From Archangium sp. (lineage in GTDB: Bacteria; Myxococcota; Myxococcia; Myxococcales; Myxococcaceae): 64,000 bases of DNA. Position numbers and translations under genes: made by a program. Positions 10,313 through 20,889 of the stretch are shown piece after piece. The stretch is taken from assembly GCA_030695565.1 (NCBI GenBank), contig JAUYRZ010000083.1, positions 1 to 64,000 on the forward strand, read 5' to 3'. A model generated the notes under the pieces. That model saw only the letters and a program-made list of their open reading frames with translations, was not told the origin of the DNA and did not search any database. The first letter of the stretch is position 1; each line of letters starts with the position of its first letter.

Positions 10313-10351
10313 CCCTCACCCCGATCCTCTCCCGGGGGGAGCGGGAGCACT
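10313..10351. repeat. REP-like palindromic element, copy 3 (supplies histidine kinase gene 3' end)
   Basis: cctcaccccgatcctctcccggggggagcgggagcac. Confidence 0.75.
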
Positions 10352-12073
10352 CAACAACGCGCTGAGCGCCGCGCGCAGTTTGCCCGGCAGCGCAGGCTTG
10401 AAGAGCACCGGATAGCCCGATTGTTTCAGCTCGCGAATGCGCCCCGCGGCCGTGTCACCGGTGACCAGCAACGTGGGTAACCGCTTCCCCACCTGCTGCT
10501 CGAGCCGCTCGATGGCCATCACGCCGTTCATGTTGTCCGGCAGGCGGTAGTCGCAGATCACCGCGTCGGGCACCTGGCTCGTGTTCAGCAAAGCGCTCGC
10601 TTCCGCGAACGAGCCCGCGCACAGCGGCTTGCAGTTCCAGCTCTCGAGCAGCGCGCTCATGCCGTCGCGCACGTCCTTCTCGTCGTCGAGCACCAGCACG
10701 CAGCGGCCCTGAAAGCCGGGATCCGCCGCTGGGCGCAAGGACACGGGCTCGATCACCCTCGCCGCGTCACCCAGCGGCACTTCCACCAACAGCTCCGTGC
10801 CGAGCTCGCGTTGCGGTTCCGAGATGAGCGTGAGGCGGTACTCCAGCGTGCGGCAGATGCCGCGCACGATGCTCAGGCCGAGGCCCAGCCCCTGCTCCCG
10901 ATCGCGCTCGGGATTTCCCACCTGGAAGAACTCTTCGAACACCTTCTCCTGCGCCTCGGGCGGAATGCCCAGGCCCGTGTCGGCGACCGAGAGCAGCACC
11001 TTGCCCCCTTCGAGGCGGGCCTCCACCGTCACCGTGCCCGCCGGTGTATAGCGAAGCGCGTTCGCCAGCAGGTTGCGCAGCACGCGGCCGAGCAGCTCCC
11101 GATCGCTCTCCACCACCAAAGTGGTCGGCTTGAACTCGAGGGCCAGGTTCTTCCGCTCGGCGGCGCCAGCCACCTCACCTTCCAGCTCGTGGAGCAGCTC
11201 CGACAAGGGAAAGTGGGTGAGGTTGGGTTTGAGCGCGCCCGCATCGACCCGCGAGAGATCGAGCAGCGCGTTGAGCAACCCGCCCAGCGCGCGGCTGGAG
11301 AGATCGATGCGATCGACGAAGGCCCGCTGCGTGGGATCCGTCACCCGCGCCGCCAACAGCTCGACGAAGAGACTCAACGCATGGAGCGGCTGCCGCAGGT
11401 CGTGGCTGGCCGCCGCGAGGAACCGCGCCTTCGAACGATACGCGTCTTCCACGCGCGCCTTCTCCACCTGCAGCGTCTGCGCGAAGTCTTCGCTCTCGAA
11501 GCGCAGCTCGACGGAGCGGGTGAGCATGCGGTTGAGCCGCAGCGTCAGAACGATGCACAGCGCCATGTAGATGAGCAGGCCTGAGCCCATCACGAAGTGC
11601 AGCAGATCGCGGGTGAGGAACATCAGGACCGCCTGGGGAATGGCGGTCAACGCGGCCATGCGCAGGAAGCTGAAGTCGTTCGCGAAGGCCACCACGCTCA
11701 CCACGCCCATGCCCGCGAAGAACACCAGGCGCAGCGCGGTCCACAACGGGTCGTCGACGTCGAAGAAGGAGATCGTCTCGAGGCCCCACATCACCGCCGA
11801 GAGCGCGTAGGTCACCTGCCACCAGCGCGACCACGACACGAGGTCGGGCTTCGGCTGTCTGCGCACCCACGCCTCGCGCACCACGTAGGGCACCCACAAC
11901 GCGATGTGGAGCAGGACCCAGGCCGCGACCGGCACGCCCGGGTGGCGGATCCACTCCAGCGCGCCGAGCAGGCCGATGCTGATGAAGTTGGCCACCGCCA
12001 TCATCAGCGGCGCGGTCTGCTCGTGTTGGGCCCGCTGCAGCTCGAGGCGAACGCGATCGACGTCAGCGGTCAC
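10316..12073 (-). CDS. Hybrid sensor histidine kinase with multi-TM N-terminus and C-terminal receiver
   Basis: H-box AAASHDLRQPLHALSLF; N-box NLLANALRYTP; DTGLGIPP; GLGLGLSIV; receiver VLVLDDEKDVRDG...AVICDYRLPDNMNG. Confidence 0.93.
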   Translation of the reverse strand: MTADVDRVRLELQRAQHEQTAPLMMAVANFISIGLLGALEWIRHPGVPVAAWVLLHIALWVPYVVREAWVRRQPKPDLVSWSRWWQVTYALSAVMWGLETISFFDVDDPLWTALRLVFFAGMGVVSVVAFANDFSFLRMAALTAIPQAVLMFLTRDLLHFVMGSGLLIYMALCIVLTLRLNRMLTRSVELRFESEDFAQTLQVEKARVEDAYRSKARFLAAASHDLRQPLHALSLFVELLAARVTDPTQRAFVDRIDLSSRALGGLLNALLDLSRVDAGALKPNLTHFPLSELLHELEGEVAGAAERKNLALEFKPTTLVVESDRELLGRVLRNLLANALRYTPAGTVTVEARLEGGKVLLSVADTGLGIPPEAQEKVFEEFFQVGNPERDREQGLGLGLSIVRGICRTLEYRLTLISEPQRELGTELLVEVPLGDAARVIEPVSLRPAADPGFQGRCVLVLDDEKDVRDGMSALLESWNCKPLCAGSFAEASALLNTSQVPDAVICDYRLPDNMNGVMAIERLEQQVGKRLPTLLVTGDTAAGRIRELKQSGYPVLFKPALPGKLRAALSALLSAPAPPGRGSG

Positions 12074-12674
12074 GCACGAGCCCCAGCTCCTGCGCGCGCA
12101 GCAGCGCCGTGGTGCGGCTGCTCACTCCGAGGATCCGGTAGATGGTCGCGAGGTGCACCTTGACGGTGTTCTCCGCCACGTTGAGGGCGACTGCGATGTC
12201 TTTGTTCGACAACCCGCGCGCCAACATGCTCAGCACCTCGACCTGCCGGGCGGTGAGCTCAGGCGCGGGTGCCCCTGCGGCACGCTCCCTCCGCTCGGGG
12301 AACGCCAGCTCGCCGTTCATCACCTTCCGCAGCGCTGCCAACAGCAGGTGACCGGGCGCCGACTTGAAGACGTAGCCCTGCGCACCCAACGCCATCGCCC
12401 GTTCGATCTCGAGCTGGCTCTCGTTGGCAGAGATGACCACCGCCGGCACCTGCGGCTGCAGCTTGCGCCCCAGCTCGAGCACGTCGAAGGGCTTCGAGTC
12501 AGGCAGCCCGAGATCGACCAGGAAGAGATCGAGATCGTCTCGCTCCTCCAGCACCTTCTTCGCGGCGCTCGCGTTCGCGGCTTCGATCACCTCCACGCCG
12601 GTGGCCAGCCCCGCCAACACGTGCACCAGCCCCTCGCGGAAGAGTGGATGATCTTCGACCAGGAGGATCTTCAC
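12063..12674 (-). CDS. LuxR/NarL-family response regulator
   Basis: KILLVEDHPLFREGL receiver; HTH ELTARQVEVLSMLARGLSNKDIAVALNVAENTVKVHLATIYRILGVSSRTTAL. Confidence 0.95.
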   Translation of the reverse strand: MKILLVEDHPLFREGLVHVLAGLATGVEVIEAANASAAKKVLEERDDLDLFLVDLGLPDSKPFDVLELGRKLQPQVPAVVISANESQLEIERAMALGAQGYVFKSAPGHLLLAALRKVMNGELAFPERRERAAGAPAPELTARQVEVLSMLARGLSNKDIAVALNVAENTVKVHLATIYRILGVSSRTTALLRAQELGLVRDR

Positions 12675-12680
12675 GGCAGC

Positions 12681-13700
12681 TCAGGCGCCATTGGTGCGGG
12701 CGGGCCGGAGCTGATGACGTTGCAGCAGCTCGGTCAAGTGCGTGCGATCCATGCGCGCGTGACGGGCGGCCGCCGACACGTTGCCCTTCTTCTTCTCCAG
12801 CAGCTGGCCCAGGTAGTGGCGCTCGAAACGTTCCAACACCTGCGCGCGCGCTTCGGCGTAGCCGTGCTCGATGCCGGGAATCGCGACGGTCGCGCCGAGC
12901 GGCTCGCTTTCGCCCGCGCCATCAACGAACGAAGGCACCTCGCTCATCGCCACCGTCGACTCCACCAGGTTGCGCAGCTCACGCACGTTGCCCGGCCAGC
13001 GATACGCGCGGAGCTGATCGAAGACCGCGTCAGAGAAATGATCGACGCGCCGCGACGTGCCCAGGAAGTGTTCGACCAGCTGCTCGAGATCGTCGGGCCG
13101 CGCGCGCAGGGGCGGGGCGGCAAGCGTGATGGTGCTCAGCCGGTAGAGGAGATCGAGCCGGAAGGCGCCCGTGCGCACGGCCTCGGGCAGCTCGCGGTGC
13201 GTGGCCGCCATCACCCGCACGTTCACCGAGATCTCCCGTGAGCCGCCGACCCTTCGAAAACGGCGGCGTTCGATGGCGCCCAGCAGCACCGACTGCAGTT
13301 GGGTGGGCAGCTCACCCACCTCGTCGAGCAAGAGCGTTCCGCCGTCGGCGCGCTCGAAGGCCCCGATGTGCGAGCTCTCGGCCCCGGTGAACGCGCCGCG
13401 CTCGTGACCGAACAGCTCGCTGGCCACCAGCTCGGAGGAGAGCGAGCCGCAGTCGACGATGATGAACGGCGCCGTCGCACGAGCCCCCCGCTCGTGCAGC
13501 TCGCGCGCGATCAGCTCCTTGCCCGTGCCGGATTCACCCTGGAGCAGCACCGTGCTGGTCACCGCCGCCGCGCGTTCGACCCGCCCCCTCAACGCGCGCA
13601 TCACCAGGGAATCGCCGACCAACGAGCTGCGGTTCTGCACCACCGCCATCTGGGGCCGGCCTGTCGCTCCCCCCTCCGTCAACGCCGCGACTCGAACCAT
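12681..13700 (-). CDS. Sigma-54-dependent transcriptional activator without receiver domain (PspF-like layout)
   Basis: GESGTGKELIAR, ELFGHERGAFTGA, GGTLLLDEVGELP, RWPGNVREL, C-terminal Fis-type HTH. Confidence 0.93.
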   Translation of the reverse strand: MVRVAALTEGGATGRPQMAVVQNRSSLVGDSLVMRALRGRVERAAAVTSTVLLQGESGTGKELIARELHERGARATAPFIIVDCGSLSSELVASELFGHERGAFTGAESSHIGAFERADGGTLLLDEVGELPTQLQSVLLGAIERRRFRRVGGSREISVNVRVMAATHRELPEAVRTGAFRLDLLYRLSTITLAAPPLRARPDDLEQLVEHFLGTSRRVDHFSDAVFDQLRAYRWPGNVRELRNLVESTVAMSEVPSFVDGAGESEPLGATVAIPGIEHGYAEARAQVLERFERHYLGQLLEKKKGNVSAAARHARMDRTHLTELLQRHQLRPARTNGA

Positions 13701-13757: not shown

Positions 13758-15341
13758 ATGCGGTTTGATGCCCGGGCGATGCAAGGACCCGGCGGTATCG
13801 TCGAAGAGCTCGTTCACCAGTTCACCGATCCCTTCGCGTTCTACCGCGAGCTGATTCAGAACAGCATCGACGCGGGCTCCACTCGCATCGAGGTCAGCCT
13901 CTCGTATCGTCCGTCAGCGAAGCAGGGCCTGCTGCTGGTCTCGGTCTGCGACTGGGGCGAGGGCATGAACCGCGAGGTGATCGAGAACTACCTGGTCACC
14001 AAGTTCCGCTCGACCAAGGAGAACGACCTCACGAAGATCGGCAAGTTCGGCATCGGCTTCGTGAGCATCTTCGCGTGCAAGCCCGACGTGGTGACGGTCG
14101 ATACCGGGCGCGATGGTGAGTTCTGGCGCGTGCTGTTCCGCGCGGACACCACGTGGGACCTACTCAAGCTCGGCGAGCCGCTCGAGGGCACGCGCGTCAC
14201 CCTGCACAAGGAGATGCCCGCGCCGGACTACGTGCAGTTCGTCGAGAGATCGCGCGCGTCGTTGTCGCGGTGGTGCCGCCACTCGGATGTCGAGGTGACG
14301 TTCAGCGCAGGCGCGGTGGATGGCCGCGCGCCCCCGGCACCGAAGCCCGTGAAGGAGCCGCTCACCGTCGACGCGCCGTTTCAGGTCGAGCACGTGGAAG
14401 ATGGCACGCACATCATCGCGGGCCCTTCGCGCACCACGCCGCCGGTGACGGGCATGTACAACCGTGGCCTCACCTTGCTGGAGACCACCGAGCTGCTCGA
14501 GCCCGGCGTCACGATGAAGATCGTCTCGCGCTATCTCGAGCACACGCTGACGCGCGACAACGTGCGGCGCGATCGGCACTTCTCTCGCGCGATGTCGCTC
14601 GCGAAAGACCTGGTGAACGAGAAGCTGCTCGTTCAGCTGCCCGCGGAGTTGAAGGCCGCTGCGGAGCGGAGGGACGGTGCTGCGGATTTTCAGACCTTGT
14701 TCCTGTTCGCGATGACGCGGCTCAAGGCGAAGCAGCTGTGCTTCCGGCTCACGGGTGGCGGCAGCGTGTCGCATGAGGCGTTGATGAAGAGCGTCGGTGA
14801 GGAGGGCTTTCTGACGGTCTCCACCAAGCGGACTGCGCTGGTCGATCGACTGCTCGATGCGAAGTGGCCGGTGCTCGAGCTCGACGTGAATCAGGAGCTG
14901 GGGCGCGCGGTCGTTCAGTTGCTCAAGGTGAAACGCACGGTGCTCGCGGATGAACATTTTACGTATGCCGCGCCTCCAGAGGTGCCGACTCCGAAGGAGT
15001 TTGCGAGCGCGCTGGTGACGTTGCTGCAGGAGGCAGGGGCGGCGGTGAAGCAGGTCGAGGTGTCGGAGGTGCGGGGCGCGGCGGCGAAGTTGCCGTTCGT
15101 CTTGTTGGAGGCGTTGTCGCGGCCGGTTCTGGAAGAGGTGGCGACTGGCTCGGCCTTCGTGCGGAAGTCGCCGGGGCTGTTGTGCTTCAACTCGAGTCAC
15201 GAGGCGATCGCGAAGGCGGCTCCGTTGTTCTCGCGGGCTCCGCGGCTGGCGGCGGTGTTGATGGCCCGGTTGGTGTTGGTGAAGGCGAGCAGACTCGATG
15301 CGGCTCGTGATGAGGCGCTGACTGCGTGGGCGCTCACTTGA
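13758..15341 (+). CDS. GHKL (Hsp90/HtpG-like) ATP-binding protein
   Basis: Start ATG 13758 within ORF 13299..15341: MRFDARAMQGPGGIVEELVHQFTDPFAFYRELIQNSIDAGSTRIEVSL; CDWGEGM; IGKFGIGFVSIFA; GTRVTLH (N, G1 and G2 boxes). Confidence 0.85.
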   Translation: MRFDARAMQGPGGIVEELVHQFTDPFAFYRELIQNSIDAGSTRIEVSLSYRPSAKQGLLLVSVCDWGEGMNREVIENYLVTKFRSTKENDLTKIGKFGIGFVSIFACKPDVVTVDTGRDGEFWRVLFRADTTWDLLKLGEPLEGTRVTLHKEMPAPDYVQFVERSRASLSRWCRHSDVEVTFSAGAVDGRAPPAPKPVKEPLTVDAPFQVEHVEDGTHIIAGPSRTTPPVTGMYNRGLTLLETTELLEPGVTMKIVSRYLEHTLTRDNVRRDRHFSRAMSLAKDLVNEKLLVQLPAELKAAAERRDGAADFQTLFLFAMTRLKAKQLCFRLTGGGSVSHEALMKSVGEEGFLTVSTKRTALVDRLLDAKWPVLELDVNQELGRAVVQLLKVKRTVLADEHFTYAAPPEVPTPKEFASALVTLLQEAGAAVKQVEVSEVRGAAAKLPFVLLEALSRPVLEEVATGSAFVRKSPGLLCFNSSHEAIAKAAPLFSRAPRLAAVLMARLVLVKASRLDAARDEALTAWALT

Positions 15342-15384
15342 AGAAGACCTCGGTGACCCGACCCTCTCCCAGAGGGAGACGAGA

Positions 15385-18300
15385 ATGAGTGCGAAAGATC
15401 TCGAGAGCTCGCTGCGCGAAGGCGGCGAGAAGGTCAGCGAAGGCCGCATTCGCATCGACTCGGCGCGCGCCCTTCAACGCCTGCGCGACTTCCGTTTCGC
15501 CGAGCCTTCTCACTGGGTGCTCGAGGTGCTGCGCGCCGCCACGTTGAGCCACGCGAAGAACCTCACCATCCGTACCGACGCCGACGACGTGGAGATCTCC
15601 TTCGACGGCCGCGCCTTTCCCGCTGACCTGATGAGGCACCTCCCCGAGCAGGCCCTCAACGGCGGGCAGTCGGCTGACGAAAAGCGCACCCGCTTGCTCT
15701 CACTGGGCGTCGCCGGTGCATTGGGCGTCGGTGCCCGCTTCGTGAAAGTGCAGAGCGGTGGCGTCACCCTGTCGCTCGAGAACGATCGAGTACAGGTCAC
15801 CGAAGAGCGCACCACCGGCACCCATCTTCACCTGCGCAAGGCGTTCGGCTGGCGGGTGACGGCTGCCTTCTTCCGCGGCTCGCCAGAAGCGCGCGCCATC
15901 ACCGAACGCGCTCAGCGTCTTCCGCCCCGGCTCACCCTCAACGGAACCGTCATCCCCGCGCCTTCCCCCGCGAGCCTCGCGAAGAAGGGAGCGCAGGGCG
16001 AAGGTTGGCGGTTGGAGGCGTGGTTGCCTCCGGGCGCGCCGTTGCCCGTCTCCACGCTCGAGCTCGACGTCGGCGGCGTGGTGGTGGCCGAGCGGCAAAA
16101 GCCACTGCCCGGGTTGCAGCTGCGTGCCTGGCTGCGCGCCGATGACCTGCGCCGCAATGCGTCCGGCTCCGATGTGGTCGATGACGACGTCATCCTCGAC
16201 CAGGCCCTCGTCGCGCTGCGGAAGATCTCACGAGAGCTGCTCGAACAGCACGGCAAGCAGCTCGCGAAAGATCCCGCCTGGCGCACCGCCTTCCTCGACA
16301 CGTTGCTCGCCCAGGAGACCCTCGACCCGCAGGTGAAGAAGCTGCTTTTCGACGTACCGTTGTTGCCCAGCCCCGGTGATGAATGGCTCTCGCTCGACGA
16401 GCTCACCAAGGCCGCCAAGAGCAACGGCTGCGTCTACACCTCGAAGAGCACCTGGCCGCGGGGCTCCTTCCCACCCGCGACGGTGATGGTGGTGGGTGAA
16501 CCGCCCTTCGCCAGGCTGCTGCCGCCCGGCAAGCGTGTCGACGTCGAAGCGGTGGTCAAACAGAAGCGGGTGATCGCCGAGAATCGGCAACGCCACGAGC
16601 AGACGGCTACCGAGTCGCCCACGCTCCCCGCTCGTGCCTGGGTCGCGCGCGCGAAGATCGACGCGACGGCGCTCATCGGTGAGGTCGGTTTCGAGAGCAG
16701 CGGCAACGGCGCCTTCGTGCGCATCCTCCACAAGGGCCGCTTGATGGAGTCGGGTGAGCTCACCGCGCTCGCCCCGCTCCGGTTGCGCGCCGTCATCGAT
16801 TGGAACCGGCCGCTCGCCGACAGCTACTTCGCGGCGGAGGGCGGCACCAGGCTGCTGGGGCTGGTGCTCAAGTACGTCGAGAACGCCGCGACCAGGGCCA
16901 TCTGCGAAGCGCTGCCCAACCCCGAGGTGTTGCCGCACGCGTTCGATCTGCTCACCCGGCTGGTGACGTTGCGCAGCGCGCCGCTGGAGGAACTCCCCCC
17001 TGCGCTCCGGGGGGCCCCGCTCTTTCCGACGCAGACCGGCCTGCAGCTCTCGCTGAATCAACTCGAAGCAGCGCCGCGCTGGTCGTTCGTCACCACGCAC
17101 GTTTCCCGGGGGCCGCTCGACGGGAGTCTGCTGCTGGTGCTCTCGCCTCCGCAGGTGCAGGTGCTCAAGAAGCTGGCGCACCAGAAGCTGGAAGACCTCA
17201 CCACGCAGCTGCGCAACGAAGCCGAGGTGCGCCGTCGCATGGAGGGGCCGAAGACGGCCGCTGAAGTCTCGAACACGGTGGTGAAGGTGGCCGTGGAAGG
17301 AGAAGGCCTGCGCGGCGAGGTGGGCATTCCGAAGTTGCCCAGCACGAAGCTGGCGCTCACGCTGATCAAGTCGGGCCTGGCCCTCGAGAGCACGGAGCTC
17401 TCAGCGCGCTACCACCACGCCGTCGCCGCGGTGGATTGCGAGAGGCTCTCGCCGAACCCACGTTGGACGGCGGCGACCCGCGATGGCGCCTTCAAGGCGG
17501 TCTCTGCCGCCGTGCACGACGCCCAACGCAGGCTGGCCCTCGAGCTGGTGAAGCTGCCTCGTGAGAAGTGGTTCATCGGCGCCGAGCTCTTCTTCATCGC
17601 GTACCTGAAGAAGGAGCTCACCCCGCTCGATCGCGCGCGGCTCGACGAGGTCAACACCACCATCGCCCAGACGCCGTTGTTCAGCGGCGCCCGGGGCCCG
17701 CTCTCGTTGATGCAGCTGAAGGATCGCGTGAAGCAGGAGGGTCGCTTTTTCGTGGTCTCTTCCAACCGGCCGCAGGTGCCGCCTGACTTCGAGGTGTTGC
17801 TCGAGCCCGCTTCACTCGCCGAAGCGCTCGGCGAGGCACTGGGGCGCGCTCCGGAGGATCCCACCGCGGTGCTCTCGGCGCTGGAAGCACGCCGCCGGTT
17901 GCAGGCGTTGCCGGCCGCTGAGTTCAAGCTGCCTTCGGGCCTCGCGCTGGAGTGCCGCGTCACCGGCCCGAACTTCACCGCGCTCGCGGGCCTGCGTGAC
18001 GGCGTGGAAGACCAGGCGTCGGGCCACGTGCATCTCGAGGGGCGCGTGTACTCGGCGCTCCTCATTCCCTGCGCGTTGCCCCTCTCGGTGGTGATCGACG
18101 CGCCGGGGTTCGAGCCGAACGCGTTCCGCGAGCTCACTGGCGATCAACGCCTGGAGCTTGGGAAAATGGTCGCCGCCGCCATGCATGAGGTGTTGCGCGT
18201 GGCGCTGCAACGACCCGAAGACGACGCGAACGCGCGCCGCGTGCTGTTGCTGGCGCTCAGGCACAACCTCGAGCTGTCGGTTCCCGCGATTGAGGGTGAG

Positions 18301-20889: not shown

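Follow-up and report, generated by a model that had tools for sequence, protein, structure and literature searches.

A short Hsp90-like ATPase (here called SM) and a giant protein whose head appears to be a dead version of the same fold (GIANT) are encoded head to tail, SM first, on the forward strand of a 64,000-nucleotide stretch of Archangium sp. DNA (the window; contig JAUYRZ010000083.1), and both open reading frames are found where the initial annotation had placed them (Table 1). Homology of the two proteins, loss of the ATP ligands, a repeat architecture, coupling of the two genes and co-occurrence across genomes were all observed. The proposal that an intact Hsp90-like ATPase is inherited together with a giant pseudo-ATPase and lies next to it in relatives is supported. 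On balance, we consider that SM and GIANT form the core of a multi-protein, ATP-driven machine that clamps its clients in the manner of Hsp90. More tentatively, and at slightly under an even chance, the system may represent an undescribed class of bacterial chaperone, an obligate hetero-Hsp90 whose second protomer, a catalytically dead paralogue, carries up to seven middle-type modules, joined by a third protein (C328) and in several phyla by a coiled-coil protein and a p97-like unfoldase; it would be a prokaryotic functional analogue of sacsin. In the open-access literature, no description of the pair or the cluster was found.

The locus

Table 1. Features of the SM-GIANT locus (positions in the window; the module HMM was built including these same GIANT modules)
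Feature	Position	Strand	Description
SM (small partner)	13758..15341	+	527 aa, predicted Hsp90-like GHKL ATPase with Hsp90 N-type and middle-type domains
SM N-box ELIQNSIDAGS (E31, N35, D38)	13848..13880	+	each residue kept in 80/80 scored relatives
SM G1 box DWGEGM (D65, G67, G69)	13950..13967	+	kept in 80/80 scored relatives
SM G2 box GKFGIGF (G95, G98, G100)	14040..14060	+	kept in 80/80 scored relatives
SM catalytic-arginine loop LEHTLTRDNVR (R266)	14535..14567	+	Arg in 80/81 relatives
SM/GIANT spacer	15342..15384	.	43 nt, perfect inverted repeat at 15360-15379
GIANT	15385..20889	+	1834 aa, putative pseudo-Hsp90 repeat protein
GIANT pseudo-GHKL head (aa 25-205)	15457..15999	+	ATP ligands lost; from profiles, AlphaFold2 model and column scoring
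GIANT module 1 (aa 211-422)	16015..16650	+	counterpart of the middle domain of SM; Gly in place of the catalytic Arg
GIANT module 2 (aa 432-643)	16678..17313	+	module HMM E=1.2e-48
GIANT module 3 (aa 644-864)	17314..17976	+	module HMM E=1e-54
GIANT module 4 (aa 867-1077)	17983..18615	+	module HMM E=2.6e-42
GIANT module 5 (aa 1078-1299)	18616..19281	+	module HMM E=4.8e-46
GIANT module 6 (aa 1301-1511)	19285..19917	+	module HMM E=5.9e-52
GIANT module 7 (aa 1513-1746)	19921..20622	+	module HMM E=1.1e-42
GIANT C-terminal tail (aa 1747-1834)	20623..20886	+	no module match

The inverted repeat between the two genes, GACCCTCTCCCAGAGGGAGA (15360-15379), is present as a single copy within the window, and no terminator-like site was found in the 43-nt spacer. 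In one relative (L072), an in-frame upstream extension of the GIANT gene (translated HPDPLPRGGEGDRSE) may hold an element similar to this repeat. Upstream of SM and divergent from it lie genes for a sigma-54 activator, a LuxR-type response regulator and a hybrid histidine kinase (10316-13700, reverse strand), separated from the start of SM by about 57 nt. This set possibly regulates the pair in the species of the window; beside the pair in relatives, the trio is not conserved. Genes for GNAT, SCP-2-like and OmpH-like proteins are located 3' of GIANT. Synteny of the flanking genes holds across the genus even where protein identity falls to 45%, and thus the locus is not an island there.

SM, a short Hsp90-like ATPase

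The reading of SM as an intact small GHKL protein with ELIQNSIDAG, DWGEGM and GKFGIGF was borne out, with the ligands kept throughout the 80 relatives scored. The N-box Asn, DxGxG and GxxGxG of a Bergerat ATP-binding N-domain are all present, and SM passes the cut-off of Pfam HATPase_c_3. It also has the middle domain with a catalytic arginine that characterizes the Hsp90 superfamily; when aligned by hhalign, R266 of SM falls on R336 of E. coli HtpG (SRE motif, LNVSREIL), the middle-domain catalytic arginine, which is the equivalent of R380 in yeast. An 18-sequence SM profile aligned with E. coli HtpG over 460 columns (E=5.6e-14, 24% identity), from HtpG residue 25 to residue 608 in its C-terminal part. 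The AlphaFold2 model of SM, a monomer prediction from an 18-sequence alignment, has a mean pLDDT of 88.7, and its best solved matches by Foldseek are HtpG, TRAP1 and Hsp90, the lowest E-value (6e-19) being to an HtpG model.

In having a Bergerat N-domain with all ligands together with the catalytic Arg, SM is similar to Hsp90, HtpG and TRAP1. However, it is shorter than HtpG and scores far below the HtpG equivalog model NF003555 (29.1 bits, cut-off 371 bits). Among the sacsin models, SM reaches 30.8 bits with Pfam SACS (cut-off 32.8) and 43 bits with NCBIfam P_loop_sacsin (cut-off 50), and GIANT matches neither. Judged from sequence and modelled structure, SM appears to be a divergent short Hsp90, and it is predicted to turn over ATP.

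The head of GIANT

By sequence, GIANT gave no significant match to any family in Pfam, NCBIfam, PADLOC or the PDB, GHKL entries included, and a 17-sequence profile of its residues 1-620 found no match in the PDB; its assignment to a family came from profile-profile and structure comparison only. Because GIANT alone matches no GHKL database entry, its co-linearity with SM was tested with profiles. The profiles of SM and of the GIANT N-terminus (18 sequences each) are collinear through 316 aligned columns (E=5.2e-13, 14% identity, probability 97.9%), in which residues 36-355 of GIANT correspond to residues 20-357 of SM through the head, the middle domain and then a 'PLF...G...SL' segment. The AlphaFold2 model of GIANT residues 1-620 (mean pLDDT 87, pTM 0.61) is, like that of SM, a monomer prediction, the two resting on 17-18 sequences; the order of helices and strands in its head equals that of the SM head. 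TRAP1 and other Hsp90s are its best Foldseek matches (E=2.6e-16), with TM-scores of 0.4-0.55, the upper value being reached by target length against N+middle constructs; that these scores are moderate is probably due to differing inter-domain angles. Thus, the co-linear head and the Bergerat fold that the initial annotation had proposed for the N-terminus of GIANT are both upheld, the model being placed on Hsp90 and TRAP1 and not on some other fold. In its N+middle fold, GIANT also resembles the known Hsp90 proteins.

The counterparts in GIANT of the SM N-box, G1 and G2 are EVLRAATLSHAK, FDGRAF and LGVAGALGVGARF. The N-box Asn is present in 80/80 scored SM proteins and in 0/77 GIANT heads, where the column of Asn35 is occupied by A, C, G, S and a few other residues, and the column of Asp38 never holds D. 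The Asp of DxGxG, likewise found in 80/80 SM proteins, is absent at the aligned column from all 77 GIANT heads; the column of Asp65 holds mostly F, C, W or Y, and although a D often stands one position further on, the DxGxG spacing is gone. The catalytic Arg is conserved in 80/81 SM proteins and in only 3/77 GIANT proteins, which mostly have Gln, His or Gly in this column. The ligand loss claimed earlier holds for Asn and Asp. The Glu before the N-box Asn, in contrast, is retained in 41/77 GIANT heads, and the head is thus degenerate and not erased.

In all three comparisons with congeners, the head was the most conserved of eight segments of GIANT (the head and seven modules), with dN/dS of about 0.24-0.5 (0.18/0.75 for G184, 0.18/0.78 for G132 and 0.34/0.67 for G119). 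Over its full length, GIANT has diverged more quickly than SM, with fast evolution of the modules. By the rates of the head, selection maintains it although it is dead. A fold that is kept, ligands that are lost in all relatives and retention under selection mark a pseudoenzyme of the GHKL fold, and each of these was found for the GIANT head, which is predicted neither to bind nor to hydrolyse nucleotide. Profiles and models together identify GIANT as a paralogue of SM in which the N+middle Hsp90 fold persists without the arginine or the nucleotide ligands.

Repeat modules of GIANT

The rest of GIANT consists of seven contiguous tandem modules of about 215 residues each (211-234), from aa 211 to aa 1746. 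A common module HMM, in whose construction these same modules were included, finds all seven (E 2.6e-42 to 1e-54) and none in shuffled sequences, and independent module-module profile comparisons within GIANT reach 1e-21. In pairwise profile tests, single modules show weak similarity to SM; the strong similarity between GIANT and SM runs through the head plus module 1. All full-length relatives in the family of the window have seven modules, and the number in other phyla ranges from one to seven. The best explanation of this pattern is that GIANT grew via tandem duplication of a middle-type module.

Distribution and coupling of the pair

The pair was found in 16 of 193 Myxococcota genomes, belonging to four families; here and below, genes beyond the window were called by a home-made caller, and counts of sampled genomes are given without phylogenetic correction. 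A contig scan of genomes with GIANT alone as query gave no relatives, and the SM alignment was used instead. With this alignment, genomes of 84,980 species yielded 214 relatives; the best 79 loci were kept, 67 of which have a GIANT head. The adjacency and the co-occurrence within Myxococcota that had been predicted are thus present. The pair is carried by Myxococcota, among them isolates of Nannocystis, Enhygromyxa and Plesiocystis, and by MAGs whose labels are Elusimicrobia, Eremiobacterota, Armatimonadetes, Planctomycetota and UBP9. Several of the loci with no adjacent GIANT (L106, L107, L110, L126, L134 and L136) sit in assemblies that, judged by their record series, have the pair at another of the loci.

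In 40 of the 47 pairs measured, the two genes overlap by 1-22 nt, mostly by 4 nt. Tree distances of SM and GIANT are correlated over 49 loci (r=0.93), to which shared ancestry contributes. The gene order is flipped at three loci (L122, L127 and L156), and at four others (L115, L166, L168 and L170) two different giants follow one small GHKL gene in tandem, which suggests that giants can diversify around a shared ATPase. The pair is real and old.

Several related arrangements were observed. In G027, an orphan pseudo-head gene (L068:1079-3136) has no SM detected upstream on its contig and no C328 in the genome; the system may have been lost there, the assembly may have a gap, or the partner may have diverged. 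At loci of the Eremiobacterota type, an extra pseudo-head protein of about 560 aa is encoded downstream of the pair on the opposite strand (L121:8194-9873, L129:14621-16297, L132:13226-14911 and L140:14720-16399, all reverse strand), and in three of these four a gene of about 620 aa lies between the pair and the extra pseudo-head. These genes may correspond to the two Peptidase_M3 matches among the neighbours.

A single open reading frame at L119:2232-7991 resembles an SM-GIANT fusion; because the bases at the junction are ambiguous, we rejected it as evidence, and it is probably a scaffold gap. Adjacent GHKL genes of about 714 and 619-661 aa were found in G002 and G019 (L069:6242-10259 and L071:1060-5180), followed by putative NADH-quinone oxidoreductase subunit genes. 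The motifs of the second head are FRELYANALDA, DNGSGL and GRFGIGF. These pairs were rejected as members of the same system, since both heads are intact and C328 is absent from the genomes. Relatives of this type (P0001) also occur in G012 and G026.

Further components

Clustering of the neighbours gave three more recurrent families, C328, C356 and C541. C328 proteins (about 285-355 aa) matched no known family and no PDB relative. Of the 193 Myxococcota genomes, the 16 that carry the pair all have C328, and the remaining 177 gave no match; the gene is frequently unlinked, and in the genome of the window it lies on another contig (G000:C120:47408-48259). By chance, such agreement has a nominal probability of 1e-23 if genomes are counted and of 2e-14 if genera are counted, phylogeny being ignored. 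Furthermore, SM and C328 match the same 2 of 150 genomes of Elusimicrobiota, and in 45 further genomes, chosen because they carry SM, we found C328 in 44, the coil in 44 and the AAA+ protein in 34.

C356 is a coiled-coil protein, with generic coiled-coil matches only and no stable Pfam family. C541 is an AAA+ ATPase with PF00004 above the cut-off. Its AAA domain is closest to p97 sequences (E=1.5e-5); unlike p97/VCP, it has a single AAA domain, and its long N-terminal region could be assigned to no known family. The order C356-C328-C541-SM, usually then GIANT, is found at loci of Elusimicrobia, Eremiobacterota, Armatimonadetes, Planctomycetota and some Myxococcota. The coil and AAA+ genes were not detected in the family of the window, and thus they cannot be essential to the core. 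In G055 and G057, a diverged coil adjoins C328.

Because co-occurrence of SM, GIANT and C328 is strict and the coil and AAA+ protein are undetected in the family of the window, we call the former three the core; the latter two are partners, missing from some lineages or diverged there beyond detection. The two-component system envisaged initially therefore has to be enlarged: C328 co-occurs perfectly in Myxococcota, and two more proteins join in other phyla.

Alternative explanations

One possible explanation other than a chaperone is that the proteins form a GHKL clamp that acts on DNA or the chromosome, similar to MutL, MORC or topoisomerase VI, with the coil and the AAA+ protein as an SMC- or loader-like apparatus. 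GHKL clamps in several families act on DNA, SM also matches MutL models (4.4e-8), and the C356 coil weakly resembles those of SMC and Rad50. However, the score of SM with MutL TIGR00585 is 32.5 bits against a cut-off of 180, structure and full-length profile comparisons favour Hsp90, and neither SM nor GIANT, C328 or the coil gave a match to an endonuclease, DNA-binding or topoisomerase domain. We regard a clamp of this kind as unlikely.

The initial annotation had left room for a defence-like role. Such a role could be that of a GHKL-type anti-phage or conflict system comparable to Tiamat TmtA or paraMORC, in which the ATPase would sense infection and GIANT would be the platform for recognition or effector function. 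The patchy distribution within Myxococcota and Elusimicrobiota and the faster evolution of GIANT than of SM would fit such a role. The GHKL head of SM also weakly matches the PADLOC models of TmtA (best 1.6e-8), which likewise has a GHKL head in a large-protein setting, but the match covers SM residues 22-106 only, about 85 residues of the shared GHKL core, out of the roughly 1300-1650 positions of the full-length profiles, and in the TmtA profiles the head is part of the large protein. Searches for effector domains such as nuclease, HEPN or TIR found none. GIANT had no match on 72,556 plasmids, and SM had only weak GHKL-domain matches on plasmids, phage records and viral contigs; the flanks, moreover, are those of a locus with kept synteny in the genus. 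Among 115 neighbour proteins, no PADLOC family recurs more than twice, the matches being mostly generic regulator-, helicase- and desulfurase-like proteins, and a general Pfam scan of the same proteins gave no common functional theme. This part of the initial proposal was not sustained, and we consider a defence function improbable.

GIANT might also be a duplicate in decay, with a functionless relic as its head, as the loss of all ATP ligands and the fast evolution of the modules might suggest; this is very hard to accept, since purifying selection acts on the head, the most constrained of the segments compared, the open reading frame is intact in the full-length homologues read, and co-occurrence is strict and gene overlap recurs across phyla.

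A candidate hetero-Hsp90 machine

In Hsp90, two copies of a single active protein form the working homodimer. Binding of ATP closes the lid of the N-domain, the active site is completed by an arginine of the middle domain, and the client is clamped by the dimer. To our knowledge, bacterial Hsp90 has been regarded as one homodimeric protein (HtpG) without a dedicated dead partner. In the Hsp90-type machine that we favour, SM would bind and hydrolyse ATP by means of its Bergerat pocket and R266 of the middle domain. The SM head would pair with the pseudo-head of GIANT, the second half of a hetero-clamp, and the ATP-dependent opening and closing of SM would be passed on to the chain of middle-type modules, which may serve as an elongated client-binding arm. 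C328 could be a third, near-obligate subunit or adaptor; with no fold known for C328, this role is conjectural. Where present, the coiled-coil protein and the p97-like AAA+ protein would extend the machine, perhaps in delivery, unfolding or release of clients. We infer such complex formation and chaperone activity from the features described above, and physical pairing of SM and GIANT and clamping of clients would be compatible with a role in protein quality control or in the assembly of large complexes. Unlike in Hsp90, the conserved partner would be a paralogue that is dead and has as many as seven modules of the middle type, accompanied by C328, the coil and the AAA+ protein.

The initial annotation had pointed to both sacsin and MORC; the comparisons favour Hsp90 and sacsin, and a MORC-type system is not favoured. 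Sacsin is a giant protein in which Hsp90-like N/middle segments recur; it has been proposed to be a 'super molecular chaperone' (PMC9880540, PMC3629688) and is known for its SIRPT (or SRR) repeats (PMC3629688). It has three Hsp90-like N+middle units, of which R474, R1839 and R2893 match R380 of Hsp90, and it has been argued to be ATP-driven, although its ATP mechanism is debated (PMC9880540). The Pfam SACS model is matched by 18/18 members of the SM family in A1 (E<=0.01). However, sacsin has three copies of head plus middle, in which most ligands are conserved, and the same chain includes Ubl, DnaJ and HEPN domains, whereas the SM/GIANT system has a single dead head, repeats only the middle-type modules and has its ATPase as a separate protein; several SIRPT repeats with DnaJ and HEPN in one chain were not found, there being one head and no DnaJ or HEPN match. 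Tiamat and the HEPN and paraMORC contexts (PMC3710099) are more remote. Sacsin thus seems to be the nearest architectural analogue.

If the proposal is true, the conserved hetero-pair with a pseudo-Hsp90 giant, an AAA+ protein and a coil would mean that bacteria have evolved multi-subunit Hsp90 machines. The system would give a tractable model for giant chaperones of the sacsin type, which are of interest for the ataxia ARSACS. Furthermore, at least three uncharacterised protein families would become part of a testable system with cultured hosts, namely Nannocystis, Enhygromyxa and Plesiocystis.
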